Of a stretch of 64,000 bases of DNA, positions 16,284-54,740 are shown in pieces; within the stretch, counting starts at the first letter, position 1, and the number at the start of each line of letters is the position of its first letter. The stretch is from Blastocatellia bacterium. GTDB lineage: Bacteria; Acidobacteriota; Blastocatellia; Chloracidobacteriales; Chloracidobacteriaceae. The stretch lies in assembly GCA_019695185.1 (NCBI GenBank), contig JAIBAN010000030.1:1-64000 (forward strand), read 5' to 3'. Under the pieces are notes generated by a model. It did no database searches. It had not been told where the DNA came from and was given only the letters and a program-made list of their open reading frames with translations. Made by a program: the position numbers and the translations under genes.

Positions 16284-17321
16284 TCAAGCCTCACTTCTTT
16301 CACGCTCAAACAGCAAAAAGTTTCCAACCCTGCGCACCCGCCGACAGCCCGGTAAAATGATTTCCTTTGCCTGGGCATTAACAGCAAGCAATACTTGTGC
16401 CAATTGGCAAATATGCCGGTATGACACTGCCGGAAATTCATCCTGTTGAGCCACTTGGTGCAAAACCCGATGTTGTAAAGCCTTTGGCAAGCGGTCCAGT
16501 TCTGCTACCGGCAACCAGGTACCGGCTTCGGTTTGGTGACTTGACTGTGACAGCCAAGCCTCGGTTTGGGTTGCAAAAAAGTCGGCGTCCTGTTGTGCTT
16601 GTTCGGCAGTTCGAGCCAAAGCAGCGGCAACTTTCGGATTCAAACCCGTTAATTCAGGCCAAATCACCTTGCGTAGACGATTTCTGGTCAACGTCACATC
16701 GTCATTGGTGGCATCGTGCCGGAACGGCAGGTGCCACCGCCCCAGATACCCTTCAACTTCCGAACGTGTCACATCAAGCAGAGGGCGAATGACCCGGATG
16801 ATTTCACCTTGGTTCTTCTCAATGTTGATTCTCCGCTCTGAACTGATTCCCGCCAATGCATCCATTCCGGCCCCCCGAATCAATCGGAGCAAAACTGTTT
16901 CGGCCTGGTCGGTCAATGTGTGGCCGGTTGCAATCAGTGAAACCCCAACGTTCCGGGCAAGTTGGCTGAGAAAACCGTAACGTTCACGCCGGGCAACGGC
17001 CTCCCAGTTTTTTCCCTCCCCCACAGCCAACTGTGAAATGTCCCGGCATTCCACCTGGGCAGAAATTCCAAGCTGTTGGGAAAATTCAACCACAAAATCC
17101 GCATCTGCTGTCGCGTCAGCACCTCGCAGACCATGATTGAGATGCCCCACGTACAAAGACAGGGCCGGGTTGATCTTGTTTCGATGTGTAGCCAAAAGAT
17201 GCAGCAAGGTGACCGAATCAGGACCGCCGGAAACCGCCACTACCAAACCTGTGGTATGGGAAAATCCTTTGATTCTCTGTAGTCTGCGGGCCACTTTGGG
17301 CCAAAGTGGATCAACAACCAT
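16284..17321 (-). CDS. tilS: tRNA(Ile)-lysidine synthase
   Basis: About 345 residues. It charges cytidine 34 of the CAU-anticodon tRNA-Ile with lysine so that AUA is read as isoleucine. The N-terminal PP-loop SGGPDSVTL and the following YVGHLNHGLRG and GHTLTDQAETVLLRL blocks are the TilS ATP pyrophosphatase core. The C-terminal part carries the substrate-binding domain. The start was moved from 17552 to the ATG at 17321 (VVDPLWPKVARR), 31 bp after the upstream stop. The longer frame would overlap that gene heavily. Confidence 0.93.
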   Translation of the reverse strand: MVVDPLWPKVARRLQRIKGFSHTTGLVVAVSGGPDSVTLLHLLATHRNKINPALSLYVGHLNHGLRGADATADADFVVEFSQQLGISAQVECRDISQLAVGEGKNWEAVARRERYGFLSQLARNVGVSLIATGHTLTDQAETVLLRLIRGAGMDALAGISSERRINIEKNQGEIIRVIRPLLDVTRSEVEGYLGRWHLPFRHDATNDDVTLTRNRLRKVIWPELTGLNPKVAAALARTAEQAQQDADFFATQTEAWLSQSSHQTEAGTWLPVAELDRLPKALQHRVLHQVAQQDEFPAVSYRHICQLAQVLLAVNAQAKEIILPGCRRVRRVGNFLLFERERSEA

Positions 17322-32894: not shown

Positions 32895-33671
32895 ATGTTG
32901 ACTGGAAAAAAAGGTCTTGTTCTGGGAGTGGCCAATAAACGCAGCATTGCCTGGGGAATTGCGCAGGCAGCAGCCAAAGCGGGAGCCCGTTTGGCTTTGA
33001 CCTATCAGGGCGAACGACTGGAGGAAAACGTCCGGGAACTGGCTGCCACCCTGGAAAATCCGGTGATTTTGCCCTGTGATGTGACCAAAGAAGAGGAAAT
33101 TACCAGCCTTTTCGCTTCCCTCAGCGAAGAATTCGGCACCCTCGATTTCCTGGTTCACGCCATCGCCTTTGCGCAAAAAGAGGATTTGGAAGGGACCTAC
33201 CTCAACACTTCCCGTTCCGGTTTTCAAACCGCCCTTGATATCAGCGCCTATTCCTTCACGGCCCTGGCACGGGCAGGGATGCCCATGATGAAAGACAACG
33301 GAGGAAGCATCATCACTTTGACCTATCTAGGTGCGGAGCGGGCCATGCCCCATTACAATGTGATGGGCGTGGCCAAAGCAGCCCTGGAATCAAGTGTTCG
33401 TTATCTGGCCAATGATCTGGGTCCGCATAACATCCGGGTCAACGCTATTTCCGCCGGCCCTATCAGCACGCTGGCTGCCCGTGGCATCAGCGGATTTACT
33501 AAAATGCTGCAACACCACCGCGAAACGGCTCCGTTACGCCGGACCACCGAAGTCGCCGAAGTCGCTGACACGGCCCTTTTTCTATGTTCTCACATGGGTC
33601 GGGGGATTACCGGCGAAGTCCTGTATGTGGATGGCGGATACCGTAGCGTGGGCATGATGCCCCTTTCTTAG
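32895..33671 (+). CDS. fabI: Enoyl-[acyl-carrier-protein] reductase (NADH)
   Basis: 258 residues. It reduces the double bond in each round of fatty acid elongation. It is a short-chain dehydrogenase with the FabI-specific opening LGVANKRSIAWGIAQ, and the catalytic pair is Y-x6-K in HYNVMGVAKAALE. The last third, GPISTLAARGISGF, is the flexible substrate loop, and the C-terminus holds GRGITGEVLYVDGGY. The ATG follows GGAG. Two fatty-acyl CoA genes follow, but across a 140-bp repeat element. Confidence 0.95.
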   Translation: MLTGKKGLVLGVANKRSIAWGIAQAAAKAGARLALTYQGERLEENVRELAATLENPVILPCDVTKEEEITSLFASLSEEFGTLDFLVHAIAFAQKEDLEGTYLNTSRSGFQTALDISAYSFTALARAGMPMMKDNGGSIITLTYLGAERAMPHYNVMGVAKAALESSVRYLANDLGPHNIRVNAISAGPISTLAARGISGFTKMLQHHRETAPLRRTTEVAEVADTALFLCSHMGRGITGEVLYVDGGYRSVGMMPLS

Positions 33672-33811
33672 GGTTCAGGGTTCAGGGTTCAGGGTAACCA
33701 AGCCGGAAATTGGAAGGTACCACCATATTTTTGGTTTTGCCTCACTTCTTCTTGTTTTTACACATTCCCATCTCTCGTAAAACCCTGAACCCTGAACCCT
33801 GAACCCTGGAG
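33671..33811. repeat. Inverted heptamer element (GGGTTCA) between fabI and hbd
   Basis: The left arm (33671-33695) is GGGTTCA x3 and its first base is the last base of the fabI stop codon. The right arm (33782-33811) is CCCTGAA x3 plus CCCTGGA and its last unit supplies the GGAG in front of hbd. The unit is that of 1-62. The core is about 85 bp. Confidence 0.93.
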
Positions 33812-38869: not shown

Positions 38870-38940
38870 AAAAAGCACGGGAGAGGCAGTTCCCGTGCTG
38901 CATAACAATCCACAAATTCCAGGCGTTTGGAAGAAGTTTT

Positions 38941-39085
38941 GGGAGTCTTGGGAGTCTTGGGAGTCTTGGGAGTCTTGGAAGTCCAGGGAGTCAGGAAATC
39001 CTTGCCACGTTGTCACGTTGTCAAAACTGTAAGAGTTCGACTCCCAAGACTCCCAAGACTCCCAAGACTCCCAAGACTCCAAGAC
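38941..39085. repeat. Inverted 9-bp repeat element, second copy
   Basis: The left arm (38941-38992) is GAGTCTTGG units. The right arm (39039-39085) is the inverse, GACTCCCAA units, and ends 1 bp from the stop codon of the minus-strand gene. In the core is a short ACGTTGTC heptamer pair (39006-39022). Same unit and nested design as 2701-2860. Confidence 0.93.
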
Positions 39086-39086
39086 T

Positions 39087-40049
39087 TTATTTCCCGTCTA
39101 CGGACACCGAAAAACGGTCTCCGGTTTTGGTTACCACAACGGTGTGGGTTCCAGCTTGGAAAGTACGGGACTCACCATCGTTCAAGCCTTCGACCTTGAA
39201 GGTATAAACCTGACCATCGGCATTCACATTCATTTGGCCGTCTTTGCTCTGGAACATCACCCGGATATTTGATTCCTTGGGGGCATTGCCATTTTCAGAA
39301 GTCCGATTGACTTCTTCCGTGACAATCACCTGATGCTGTCCGGCTTCACCTTTGGGGGCCACAACAATGTGCCGTTCCTTGACGTCACCGGGTTTTCCAT
39401 CCTGGTCCACAAACACATGGAACATTTTGTCGCCGCCTTCACTCCGCAGCATGACGGGATGCCCCATTTCCTTGCCGTCCACTTTCAGCACCAGCTTATC
39501 CCCCTGCCGGGTGACGGTCACATTATGTTGACCGGCGGCAAAGGTCCGGGTTTCCCCTTCGGCCAAATCCGTCAGGCGAATGGTTTGAGAGGCTCCGCCC
39601 TGGGTAACAGTGACTTCCTTCTTCTGAGAGTCAGCCACGACCTTCAACATATTGTTCTGGTCGTCTTTGAGCATAATCACTTGTGAATCACGGATTTCAA
39701 CATTGCCACCGGGTCCATCCGCACTCATAAACACCATGACCGGTTTGCCGTCTTTGCCCTTGGGCAACAGGTCGGCATCAGATAATTCCTTCCCATCCAG
39801 ACTGACGGCCAGAGTGTTGCCCCGGCGGGTCACAACGATGGTGTGATTGCCGGAAGAAATGGTTTTTGAGGCCCCCTCGGTCAAATCCTGCAACCGAACG
39901 TGTTCAGGTTTGCCATCATTCAGGACCAGGACGACCTGGCTGTCAGGTGTCCGAATGACACGCGGCCCTTCGGCATAGGTTGGAACAGAGCTCCCTACGG
40001 CAAAAACCGTAGCGGCGAACAAAACAAAACTCAGCAGTCTCAATTTCAT
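39087..40049 (-). CDS. Secreted triple-repeat protein, likely sigma-54 target
   Basis: About 320 residues. Start at 40049 after AAGGGG, opening a signal peptide (LLSFVLFAATVFAVGSS). It holds three copies of a 35- to 40-residue unit: LTEGASKTISSGNHTIVVTR, LAEGETRTFAAGQHNVTVTR and LNDGESRTFQAGTHTVVVTK, each ending in a x-V-x-x-DGK strand. The unit pattern is beta-rich. A conserved DGKPVMVFMSADGPG stretch lies between the first two. The family is not recognised. It has its own -24/-12 promoter (40134-40149) and follows the regulator gene of the same circuit. Confidence 0.8.
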   Translation of the reverse strand: MKLRLLSFVLFAATVFAVGSSVPTYAEGPRVIRTPDSQVVLVLNDGKPEHVRLQDLTEGASKTISSGNHTIVVTRRGNTLAVSLDGKELSDADLLPKGKDGKPVMVFMSADGPGGNVEIRDSQVIMLKDDQNNMLKVVADSQKKEVTVTQGGASQTIRLTDLAEGETRTFAAGQHNVTVTRQGDKLVLKVDGKEMGHPVMLRSEGGDKMFHVFVDQDGKPGDVKERHIVVAPKGEAGQHQVIVTEEVNRTSENGNAPKESNIRVMFQSKDGQMNVNADGQVYTFKVEGLNDGESRTFQAGTHTVVVTKTGDRFSVSVDGK

Positions 40050-40133: not shown

Positions 40134-40149
40134 TGCAAAGACCGTGCCA
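40134..40149 (-). promoter_or_regulatory. Sigma-54 promoter of the triple-repeat gene
   Basis: On the minus strand TGGCACG-GTCT-TTGCA matches the -24/-12 consensus at every key base (GG, ten bases, GC). A start of transcription near 40124 would give about 75 nt of leader before the ATG at 40049. Confidence 0.9.
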
Positions 40150-40310: not shown

Positions 40311-40373
40311 TTGAAATGTCCTGAAATCAGGAAAGGATTTCCTCATATCAGGAAATGGCACAGTGCAAATGCC

Positions 40374-41735
40374 TTACAGGCTAAACTTTTCCAGCCGATA
40401 CATAAAGGTTTTGTAACTCATCCCCAACAGTTTGGCAGCATTGGTCCGATTCCCACCAGCCAGTTCAAGCGCCTGTTTGAGCAAGCCCTCTTCCATGCTC
40501 TCCCATTGAATGCCCATGGCGGGCAACCGGAAGGGGCAACCTGGCGTAGCGGTTGGGCGGGCGATTTCAGGCGGCAAATCCGCCAGTGTCACACTTCCTT
40601 CATCTGCCAGCAGAACCAGCCGTTCAATCACGTTGGAAAGCTCGCGGACATTGCCGGGCCAGGAATATTCCATCAGGCAGCGCAAAACATTGGGCGGCAA
40701 TGGTTCAATCGAAATGCCATATTTGGCTGAAAATCGTTTCAGAAATTCCTGCGCCAGTAAGGGAACATCCTCCCGCCGGTCCCGCAGGGCCGGAATCTGA
40801 ACCGGAACCACATTCAACCGGTAAAACAAATCCTCGCGGAAAGCTCCTTCAGATACGAGTTTTCCCAGGTCCCGATTGGAAGCAGCGACAATCCGGACAT
40901 CACATTCGACCTCACCCCGACCGCCCAGGCGGGTAAACCGGCGTTCCTGCAACACCCGCAACAATGCAGCCTGGAGAGGCAAGGGCATGGAGGGGATTTC
41001 GTCCAAAAACAGGGTTCCCCCTTGCGCTTCCTCAAATTTCCCGACCCTCCGTTGGTTGGCTCCGGTAAAAGCCCCTTTTTCATAACCAAATAACTCGCTT
41101 TCCATCAGGGTTTCAGGAATGGCGGCACAGTTGACCGCCACAAAAGGTCCTTTGGCCCGTCCACTTTCAAGATGCAGCGTGCGGGCCACCAGTTCCTTGC
41201 CCGTCCCGGACTCGCCATTGATGAGCACCGTGGCGTCGGTGGCGGCAATTTTCTTGAGGGTTCGGTAGAGCCGCTGCATGGACTCCGCCCGCCCAACCAG
41301 TTCCCCCAATTGGTCCCGGTCTGCAATTTCCTCTTTGAGCCGCAGGTTTTCATGTTCCAGTTGGCGGGTCCTGAGCACCCGCCGGACGGCAATCAGCAGT
41401 GCATCCCGCTCAAACGGCTTGGTTAAATAGTCGTCTGCCCCCAACCGGATGGCTTCAACCGCATGAGAAATCGAGCCATAGGCGGTCATGATGATAAACG
41501 CACAAGGGAATTCGCGTTTGCGGACTTCGGTCAGCAATTCCCCGCCCGTCATGCGCGGCATCCGCCAGTCACACAAAATCAAATCCGGCGGGCTGGTTTC
41601 CAATGCGGTCAACGCTGCCTCGCCATCAGGGGCTTCCTGTACCGTAAACCCTTCTTTTATAAGAATATCGGCTATGATTTTCCGTTGTGGGGCTTCGTCT
41701 TCAACGACCAGGAGACGGGATTTCAGTTTTTCCAT
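40374..41735 (-). CDS. NtrC-family sigma-54-dependent response regulator
   Basis: About 453 residues. Start at 41735 after AAGGAAG; the longer frame only translates a repeat. The receiver domain comes first (LLVVEDEAPQRK, phospho-acceptor Asp in LILCDWRMP, conserved Lys in YLTKPF). Then the AAA+ domain has Walker A GESGTGKE and the sigma-54 contact loop GAFTGA. The end is a Fis-type helix-turn-helix (NAAKLLGMSYKTFMYRLEKF). It is probably phosphorylated by the histidine kinase encoded just upstream and activates sigma-54 promoters, two of which flank this operon. Confidence 0.95.
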   Translation of the reverse strand: MEKLKSRLLVVEDEAPQRKIIADILIKEGFTVQEAPDGEAALTALETSPPDLILCDWRMPRMTGGELLTEVRKREFPCAFIIMTAYGSISHAVEAIRLGADDYLTKPFERDALLIAVRRVLRTRQLEHENLRLKEEIADRDQLGELVGRAESMQRLYRTLKKIAATDATVLINGESGTGKELVARTLHLESGRAKGPFVAVNCAAIPETLMESELFGYEKGAFTGANQRRVGKFEEAQGGTLFLDEIPSMPLPLQAALLRVLQERRFTRLGGRGEVECDVRIVAASNRDLGKLVSEGAFREDLFYRLNVVPVQIPALRDRREDVPLLAQEFLKRFSAKYGISIEPLPPNVLRCLMEYSWPGNVRELSNVIERLVLLADEGSVTLADLPPEIARPTATPGCPFRLPAMGIQWESMEEGLLKQALELAGGNRTNAAKLLGMSYKTFMYRLEKFSL

Positions 41736-41864: not shown

Positions 41865-43352
41865 TTAATCTCTGACGAGGGGAATCCGGACCACAGCAAT
41901 CGTACCACCATCCGGATTATCAATCATTTCCAATTTGCCCCGGTGCCCGCCTTCAATCAATTGTTTTGCCAAAAAGAGGCCCATTCCGGAACCGCCGGTT
42001 TTGGTCGTGACATGGGGGGTAAAAAGTTTTTGCCGAACCTCGACTGGCATTCCCGGCCCCCGGTCGGTAATGTGAATCATTCCATAAAAGCCGTCGTTTG
42101 AAAGTTTCACATGAACAACTTCGCCTTCCGGGGATGCCTCAAACGCATTTCCAATTAGATTGGCCAGGGCTGAACGAAGGGCCGAAGGAACCACTTTGGC
42201 TCGAATAGGTTCGTCCGTGGCATCCAGTTCGAGGTTTTTCCCTCCTTGCACCAGTTCAAACGCCACATCCTGAACCAATCGGGAGAGGTCAACCACTTCA
42301 GGTTCGGCGGCTCCGCCTGCCCCAATTGCCAAAAACGACCGTAACCAATTATCAATCCGGCGGATTTGCCCGCGTGCCGTGGCGACCATTTCCTCCCCTT
42401 CCCCATTGACCTTGGCACCCAGTTCCTCGACGATTAAACCAAGTGTATTGAGCGGGTTGCGGAGCGTATGCCCCAAACCGCGAGCCAAGTCGCCCAGTTC
42501 CGCCAGATGTTCCCGCGCTTTCCAGGCTTCTTTTTCATGCTCCAGTTCCGCCAAGCGAGCTGACATCCGGTTAAACGAAGCCTGTAATTCACCGACCTCA
42601 CCTTTGGAGGTCACTTCCACTTGAGTTCCCAATTCTCCACGGGCCAAGGCTTCGACACCATTTGCCAGTTTTCGCAACGGTTGCGTCACCCGATGGGCAA
42701 ACATGGCCGCCATCAACCAGCCAATCAGCATCAGCAGGCTTCCGGCAATCAGCCCCTGGGTTTGGGTTTTCTGTACAATCTGGAGCGAATGGGAAGGAGG
42801 CAGCGGAATCCGGCGTTCGCCACCCGGTGCGCCCCGCACCACCAACATTCGGTCAAATGTATCGTCTTTTTTTTCAACTTCCACCCGCACTGGGTGGTCC
42901 TTGAATTGTTTGATGATTTGGTTGGGGCCGGTTTTCTCGTCCGTCACAAACACCCGTTCGCTTTGAGCGGTAGTTTGGTTTTTCCCGTCATCTTTGGTGA
43001 TGGTGACCCGTTCATGGTACTGCTTTGCCCCTGGCAAAGGCTTGCCATCTTTGGTTTTGAAGAGGATGTCAGGTGGTGGCGTCCCATCTTTTGAGGTGAA
43101 AACAAACGCCGTGGGCGGATTTCCCCCAGGAGCCGGAGGTTTGGGGGTTTCCTCCACTTTGACCGTTATTTGGCCATTTTGGTTGGTAGAATGGATTTCC
43201 CGAAAAAAAACCGCCTGGCCGACATTGGCCGCCACTTCGTTCAATTCACGTTCAATCGCCTTGAGTTGCTGGATTTGCAGCCACCATTGAAAACCGACCA
43301 AAGCCAGCAGCATGACTGCCGTCCCCAAAAACAACTGTGTTCGAATGCGCAT
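41865..43352 (-). CDS. Sensor histidine kinase
   Basis: 495 residues. Membrane segments at residues 7-28 and about 200-220 bracket a periplasmic sensor of about 170 residues rich in charged and Pro residues. A HAMP domain follows, then the H box in LGDLARGLGHTLRNPLNTLG, then the ATP-binding domain with LANLIGNAFEASPEG (N box), ITDRGPGMP (G1) and GGSGMGLFLAKQLIEGG (G2). It is the NtrB-like kind that partners NtrC-type regulators. The regulator gene follows 129 bp downstream across a hairpin element. The ATG start lies 41 bp from a sigma-54 promoter. Confidence 0.95.
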   Translation of the reverse strand: MRIRTQLFLGTAVMLLALVGFQWWLQIQQLKAIERELNEVAANVGQAVFFREIHSTNQNGQITVKVEETPKPPAPGGNPPTAFVFTSKDGTPPPDILFKTKDGKPLPGAKQYHERVTITKDDGKNQTTAQSERVFVTDEKTGPNQIIKQFKDHPVRVEVEKKDDTFDRMLVVRGAPGGERRIPLPPSHSLQIVQKTQTQGLIAGSLLMLIGWLMAAMFAHRVTQPLRKLANGVEALARGELGTQVEVTSKGEVGELQASFNRMSARLAELEHEKEAWKAREHLAELGDLARGLGHTLRNPLNTLGLIVEELGAKVNGEGEEMVATARGQIRRIDNWLRSFLAIGAGGAAEPEVVDLSRLVQDVAFELVQGGKNLELDATDEPIRAKVVPSALRSALANLIGNAFEASPEGEVVHVKLSNDGFYGMIHITDRGPGMPVEVRQKLFTPHVTTKTGGSGMGLFLAKQLIEGGHRGKLEMIDNPDGGTIAVVRIPLVRD

Positions 43353-43392: not shown

Positions 43393-43408
43393 GGCAAACA
43401 CCGTGCCA
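43393..43408 (-). promoter_or_regulatory. Sigma-54 promoter of the kinase-regulator operon
   Basis: On the minus strand TGGCACG-GTGT-TTGCC keeps GG and GC ten bases apart and shares its first nine bases with the promoter at 40134-40149. A start near 43383 gives a short leader to the kinase ATG at 43352. An imperfect dyad GGTTC-N10-GAACC (43429-43448) lies just upstream and may be an activator site. Confidence 0.9.
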
Positions 43409-54604: not shown

Positions 54605-54740
54605 AAATTGAGAATTGAGAATTGAGAATTGAGAATTGAGAATTGAAAGAGGTTTGTACCTATATGCAAACTCAATTCTCGATTCTCAATTCTCAGTTCT
54701 CAGTCCTCAGTCCTCAGTCCTCAGTCCTCAGTCCTCAAAT
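54605..54740. repeat. Inverted heptamer element with two unit types
   Basis: The left arm (54605-54646) is ATTGAGA x5. The right arm (54671-54740) is CTCAATT-like units x4 that change to CTCAGTC x5, ten in all. It fills the gap between the DUF4436 stop (54601) and the convergent M23 stop (54744). Confidence 0.92.

Follow-up and report, generated by a model that had tools for sequence, protein, structure and literature searches.

Proteobacteria have sigma-54 envelope-signalling systems that include a periplasmic accessory protein. One such protein, ZraP, binds zinc, acts as a chaperone and is expected to be helical; CpxP is helical, and CpxR is not known to be a sigma-54 activator. In the ZraPSR system of Escherichia coli and Salmonella, the sigma-54 promoters of both zraSR and zraP are driven by ZraR, and the periplasmic chaperone ZraP has been reported to repress its own system (PMC4987338). 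A literature search on sigma-54 regulators of Acidobacteriota found nothing relevant or comparable.

A ZraPSR-like arrangement in an acidobacterial genome

The window analyzed here, a stretch of 64,000 nucleotides from a Blastocatellia bacterium (contig JAIBAN010000030.1), carries the genes of a sensor histidine kinase, an NtrC-type response regulator and a secreted protein that we call the DGETR protein, a name coined for this analysis only. As in ZraPSR, a kinase and an NtrC-type regulator are combined with a (here predicted) periplasmic accessory protein and a small regulon, and sigma-54 promoters are found both on the kinase-regulator operon and on the accessory gene. In contrast, zraP is divergent from zraSR whereas the DGETR gene follows its kinase and regulator on the same strand, and the DGETR protein is beta-rich, contains no Cys and is unrelated to ZraP. 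No ZraP-type Pfam match to it was found at E<=1, and its repeated unit shows no resemblance to ZraP, CpxP or Spy. The regulator reached 379.6 of the 760 bits of the ZraR equivalog cut-off and the kinase 77.9 of the 479 bits for ZraS. Since these cut-offs were missed and the secreted protein is unrelated to ZraP, we regard the circuit as one that works like ZraPSR and not as a member of it. The arrangement also recalls CpxP-CpxAR and other two-component accessory proteins, in which the gene of a secreted protein adjoins the genes of its sensor system and is under the control of that system, but no sequence relation of the DGETR protein to CpxP was seen with Pfam.

The kinase (41865..43352, minus strand) was found by Pfam and TM prediction to consist of a TM segment, an extracytoplasmic loop of ~170 aa, a second TM segment, and HAMP, HisKA and HATPase domains. 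The regulator (40374..41735, minus strand; Pfam) has a receiver, an AAA+ sigma-54 activator domain and a Fis-type HTH. Both proteins thus carry the Pfam domains of an NtrC-type sigma-54 two-component system, and sigma-54 itself is encoded in the window's genome. The earlier note had made the DGETR gene the last of a two-component cassette, and this order holds, with the kinase running from 43352 to 41865, the regulator from 41735 to 40374 and the DGETR gene from 40049 to 39087, all on the minus strand. The same succession of kinase, NtrC-type regulator and unit protein on one strand was observed in 16 genomes; in genome G001, contig ends separate the regulator from the unit gene, and the two are likely linked. 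No copy of the unit was found inside the kinase sensor loop. The extracytoplasmic parts of the kinases are poorly conserved, as are the secreted proteins outside their units, so that no constant client or ligand suggests itself.

The DGETR protein contains three copies of a beta-rich unit

The DGETR gene (39087..40049, minus strand), delimited by translation, homologs and a three-unit HMM search, starts with the ATG at 40049, stops at 39089-39087 and encodes 320 aa. Judged by eye, the N-terminus (aa 1-26; 39972..40049, minus strand) resembles a signal peptide, with KLR, a hydrophobic stretch and a terminal PTYA followed by E, and on this reading the protein would be exported or periplasmic. 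A unit HMM, for which all sequences came from outside the window's bacterial family, detected exactly three units, all on the minus strand: unit 1 (aa 49-88; 39786..39905) at 35.1 bits, unit 2 (aa 156-195; 39465..39584) at 47.6 bits and unit 3 (aa 284-320; 39090..39200), which reaches the C-terminus, at 41.4 bits. The best domain score among 1000 shuffles of the protein was 7.0 bits. These data bear out the three-copy beta-rich repeat that had been read from the sequence, together with its motif, (D/E)G-x-[ST]-[KR]-T-[IF]-x-[AS]G-x-H-x-[VI]-x-VT[RK] followed by a strand ending in VDGK or LDGK. The repeat is slightly longer than the 35-40 aa first proposed: the HMM units span ~40 aa, and the beta-hairpin that precedes the motif is repeated as well, which brings the full repeat to ~55 residues.

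Just past the DGETR stop codon, between two convergent genes, lies an array of a tandem 9-bp repeat, AGTCTTGGG, with an inverted tandem copy 55 nt later (38931-39091), which could fold back into a long hairpin. The window has comparable arrays of 7- and 9-bp repeats at 2702-2861, 33670-33808 and 54606-54738.

An AF2 model of unit 2, for which the input alignment comprised the other two units and three relatives, was beta-rich, with six strands and a short turn, and had a pLDDT of 75-85 in the core and 70 overall. Prediction of the whole protein from its single sequence was poor (mean pLDDT 53) and served for secondary structure only, but the strand pattern does recur three times. Profile, sequence and fold searches yielded no Pfam, NCBIfam or PDB family that fits the DGETR protein, in agreement with the initial failure to place it, and both the family and the three-gene circuit are without a name in the libraries searched. 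The best PDB match by sequence, an alpha-xylosidase fragment (E 0.001), was unconvincing, and the PDB fold search with the unit 2 model gave a best E of 0.55, with none below 0.5. The Pfam Laminin G domain (Laminin_G_1, PF00054) matched the DGETR protein at 26.2 bits (cut-off 24; E 1e-5). The unit hairpin, GxHxVxVTRxGDxLxVxVDG, resembles the LamG core hairpin, but the unit has ~55 residues and about six strands, and the match covers a 35-column fragment of the 131-column profile (positions 55-89). Membership was rejected, the match being limited to one hairpin in one of 15 members, with single units and relatives below the cut-off.

Sigma-54 promoters and paired palindromes mark the unit genes

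A -24/-12 (sigma-54) promoter, TGGCACGGTCTTTGCA, lies 84 nt before the DGETR ATG (40134..40149, minus strand), in line with the sigma-54 promoter named in the earlier note; it fits the consensus at every position scored in the scan and is conserved in nearly all cassette homologs. Upstream of it, a motif scan located a tandem pair of 12-bp palindromes (40320..40352), CCTGAAATCAGG and CCTCATATCAGG, with a spacing of 21 bp; they are conserved in relatives and are probable activator sites of the neighbouring regulator. They are the only palindromes in the window that match at 12/12. For the kinase gene, the consensus scan placed a -24/-12 promoter, TGGCACGGTGTTTGCC, at 43393..43408 (minus strand), 40 nt upstream of the ATG. 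A further exact -24/-12 consensus, TGGCACAAGTATTGCT, is present at 16387-16402 on the minus strand, with no 12/12 palindrome nearby.

Among the 16 first-found members of the family, a -24/-12 site was present 33-138 nt before the start in all 16 (score 0.80-1.0), and a 12-bp palindrome, CCYSAWWTSRGG, was found upstream of the promoter, commonly as a pair 19-21 bp apart. Perfect (12/12) palindromes occurred in 12 of these 16 upstream regions, with 15 sites in all compared to 0.05 expected from shuffles; one member had no site at 11/12, and for another the upstream sequence was only 163 nt long. The motif was fixed on these 16 members and then tried on members not used to define it. All six test members had both the -24/-12 promoter and a palindrome (>=11/12), and three domain relatives outside the circuit had neither (0/3). 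Kinase operons had their own -24/-12 site (score >=0.80, within 250 nt) in 11 of 14 cases, compared to 2.5% of random windows. The DGETR gene thus shows the features of a target of an NtrC-type system, namely a -24/-12 promoter, upstream palindromes and an encoded sigma-54. We infer, with good support, that the regulator binds the paired palindromes and switches on the unit gene. No palindromes were found beside the kinase promoter itself, so that autoregulation would need either action over ~3 kb or another activator.

In the window's own genome (8.3 Mb), 62 palindromes were counted, compared to 7 for the reversed pattern, and there were three tandem pairs, one of them weak. Since most of the 62 single palindromes (about 44 examined) have no -24/-12 site nearby, single sites alone were not used for calling the regulon. 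One locus of this genome (L062 3708-4256, contig C72) combines tandem palindromes and a -24/-12 promoter with the gene of a secreted 109-aa protein without a Pfam match, and is a second strong candidate target. Genes of S41/Tricorn-type PDZ proteases have tandem palindromes both in this genome and in G003, which represent two genera, and the accompanying -24/-12 sites are weak (0.79-0.81). In four loci of Polarisedimenticola-type genomes, small single-TM proteins are encoded directly after the regulator, some of them with a promoter and palindrome.

The unit family and its kinase type occur together

Members of the unit family were detected in about 23 of 396 Acidobacteriota genomes, and one relative that bears a name is Candidatus Polarisedimenticola svalbardensis; a collection scan with a three-row unit alignment recovered four loci only. 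A caspase/TPR protein and a Geminicoccaceae locus were judged chance matches to the unit. The DGETR gene is single-copy in its own genome, G003 (same family, other genus) encodes a three-unit ortholog that is 37% identical to the DGETR protein, and G001 has a two-unit form. Most homologs contain one unit, followed either by a Cys/His module (CPxH) or by an acidic region that carries a short helix-like motif at the C-terminus. A Cys/His module (...CPEGD...CPKH...) ends seven of the unit proteins and may be metal-binding. A gammaproteobacterial MAG has a unit protein and lacks the regulatory sites and the kinase.

The kinase type and the unit family were found together in 20 of the 396 Acidobacteriota genomes, the unit alone in 3 and the kinase alone in 8 (odds ratio ~300). 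Because the kinase profile was built from cassette kinases, their genomes are circular in this comparison; excluding the genomes that supplied the profile gave p = 2e-10. At least one genome counted as kinase only (G256) has a unit protein after the regulator. Unit genes that are unlinked to the cassette retain the promoter and site, and in most such genomes a site also adjoins the kinase-regulator pair; in G275, for example, this pair is directly followed by the tandem site that the unlinked unit gene carries. Those genomes with an unlinked site-bearing gene that we examined each encode one kinase with the matching type of N-terminus, followed by a regulator, and eight genomes without a site-bearing gene encode none. 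Distances between units correlate with those between regulators (Mantel r = 0.66, p = 2e-4), a correlation that may reflect shared descent only, as the Mantel test does not separate it from coevolution. Taken together, the gene order, both -24/-12 promoters, the shared palindrome and the kinase co-occurrence strongly support the view that the DGETR protein is the output of the adjacent two-component cassette.

Outside Acidobacteriota, one of 299 Pseudomonadota genomes (G657) has a related kinase-regulator pair preceded by a tandem site; in place of the unit protein there is a divergent, secreted protein that looks helical. The layout of this pseudomonadotal locus (L173 4250-6471), with the tandem palindromes between the pair and the divergent gene, is ZraP-like.

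Proposed role of the DGETR protein

We consider it probable, at roughly 0.6, that an envelope-signalling circuit, dependent on sigma-54 and self-amplifying, has the DGETR protein as its dedicated output, and that this protein plays a periplasmic accessory and feedback role. In this circuit, the membrane kinase would read a periplasmic or envelope signal, and the phosphorylated NtrC-type regulator would assemble on the two palindromes, which at 19-21 bp apart would lie on the same face of the DNA. The regulator would then turn on two sigma-54 promoters, that of the DGETR gene and that of the kinase-regulator operon. Once exported, the DGETR protein would bind a stress product or client in the periplasm and damp the kinase, as ZraP does for ZraS. 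The circuit itself, that is the order, promoters, sites and co-occurrence, is well supported. Self-amplification, for which the regulator would have to reach the kinase promoter from about 3 kb away in the window, has moderate support, and a chaperone, ligand-binding or feedback activity of the protein, suggested by analogy, moderate to weak support. The envelope-stress role that had been proposed at first sight is plausible through the ZraPSR analogy and the site-bearing periplasmic-type S41/PDZ protease of two genomes.

The DGETR protein could instead be a pure effector, an envelope-binding, matrix or metal/peptide-sequestering protein without feedback on the kinase. Its three tandem units suggest multivalent binding, and some relatives have the added CPxH module or transporter-type neighbours (MacA/MacB-like in one, RND/MMPL-type in another). 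We hold this to be unlikely, since the unit gene is usually the single gene that adjoins its kinase-regulator pair and since there are few tandem sites, both of which fit a dedicated accessory protein. That the secreted protein is a co-sensor, which brings the signal to the loop of the kinase and without which there would be no activation, would accord with its co-occurrence and co-divergence with the kinase. This is improbable, as a promoter that is off without sigma-54 activation is ill suited to supplying a co-sensor constitutively, and a few genomes have the kinase with no unit protein detected. Slightly less credible still is an ordinary lectin domain protein of the Laminin-G/ConA-like kind whose neighbours are coincidental, a reading to which the above-cut-off Laminin_G_1 match and weak Foldseek matches of the unit model to jelly-roll lectins point, and against which stand the partial coverage of that profile, the failure of units and relatives to reach the cut-off, the poor best fold match and neighbour genes that are conserved, hence not coincidental.

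The circuit might further represent a separate sigma-54 envelope-stress class alongside Zra and Cpx, defined by a kinase family of its own, a conserved paired operator and a new secreted beta-unit family as feedback chaperone or ligand trap, in about 12 Acidobacteriota families and rarely beyond; we put this forward tentatively, at somewhat less than even odds. The circuit proved to have a wider distribution and a clearer definition than a first reading could show. It recurs across Acidobacteriota, a major soil phylum, and is more strictly conserved as a regulatory circuit than is the sequence of its output protein. It gives proteins that are unnamed in the libraries searched a function-linked label and, with a defined operator, promoter, kinase type and secreted family, it is directly testable.
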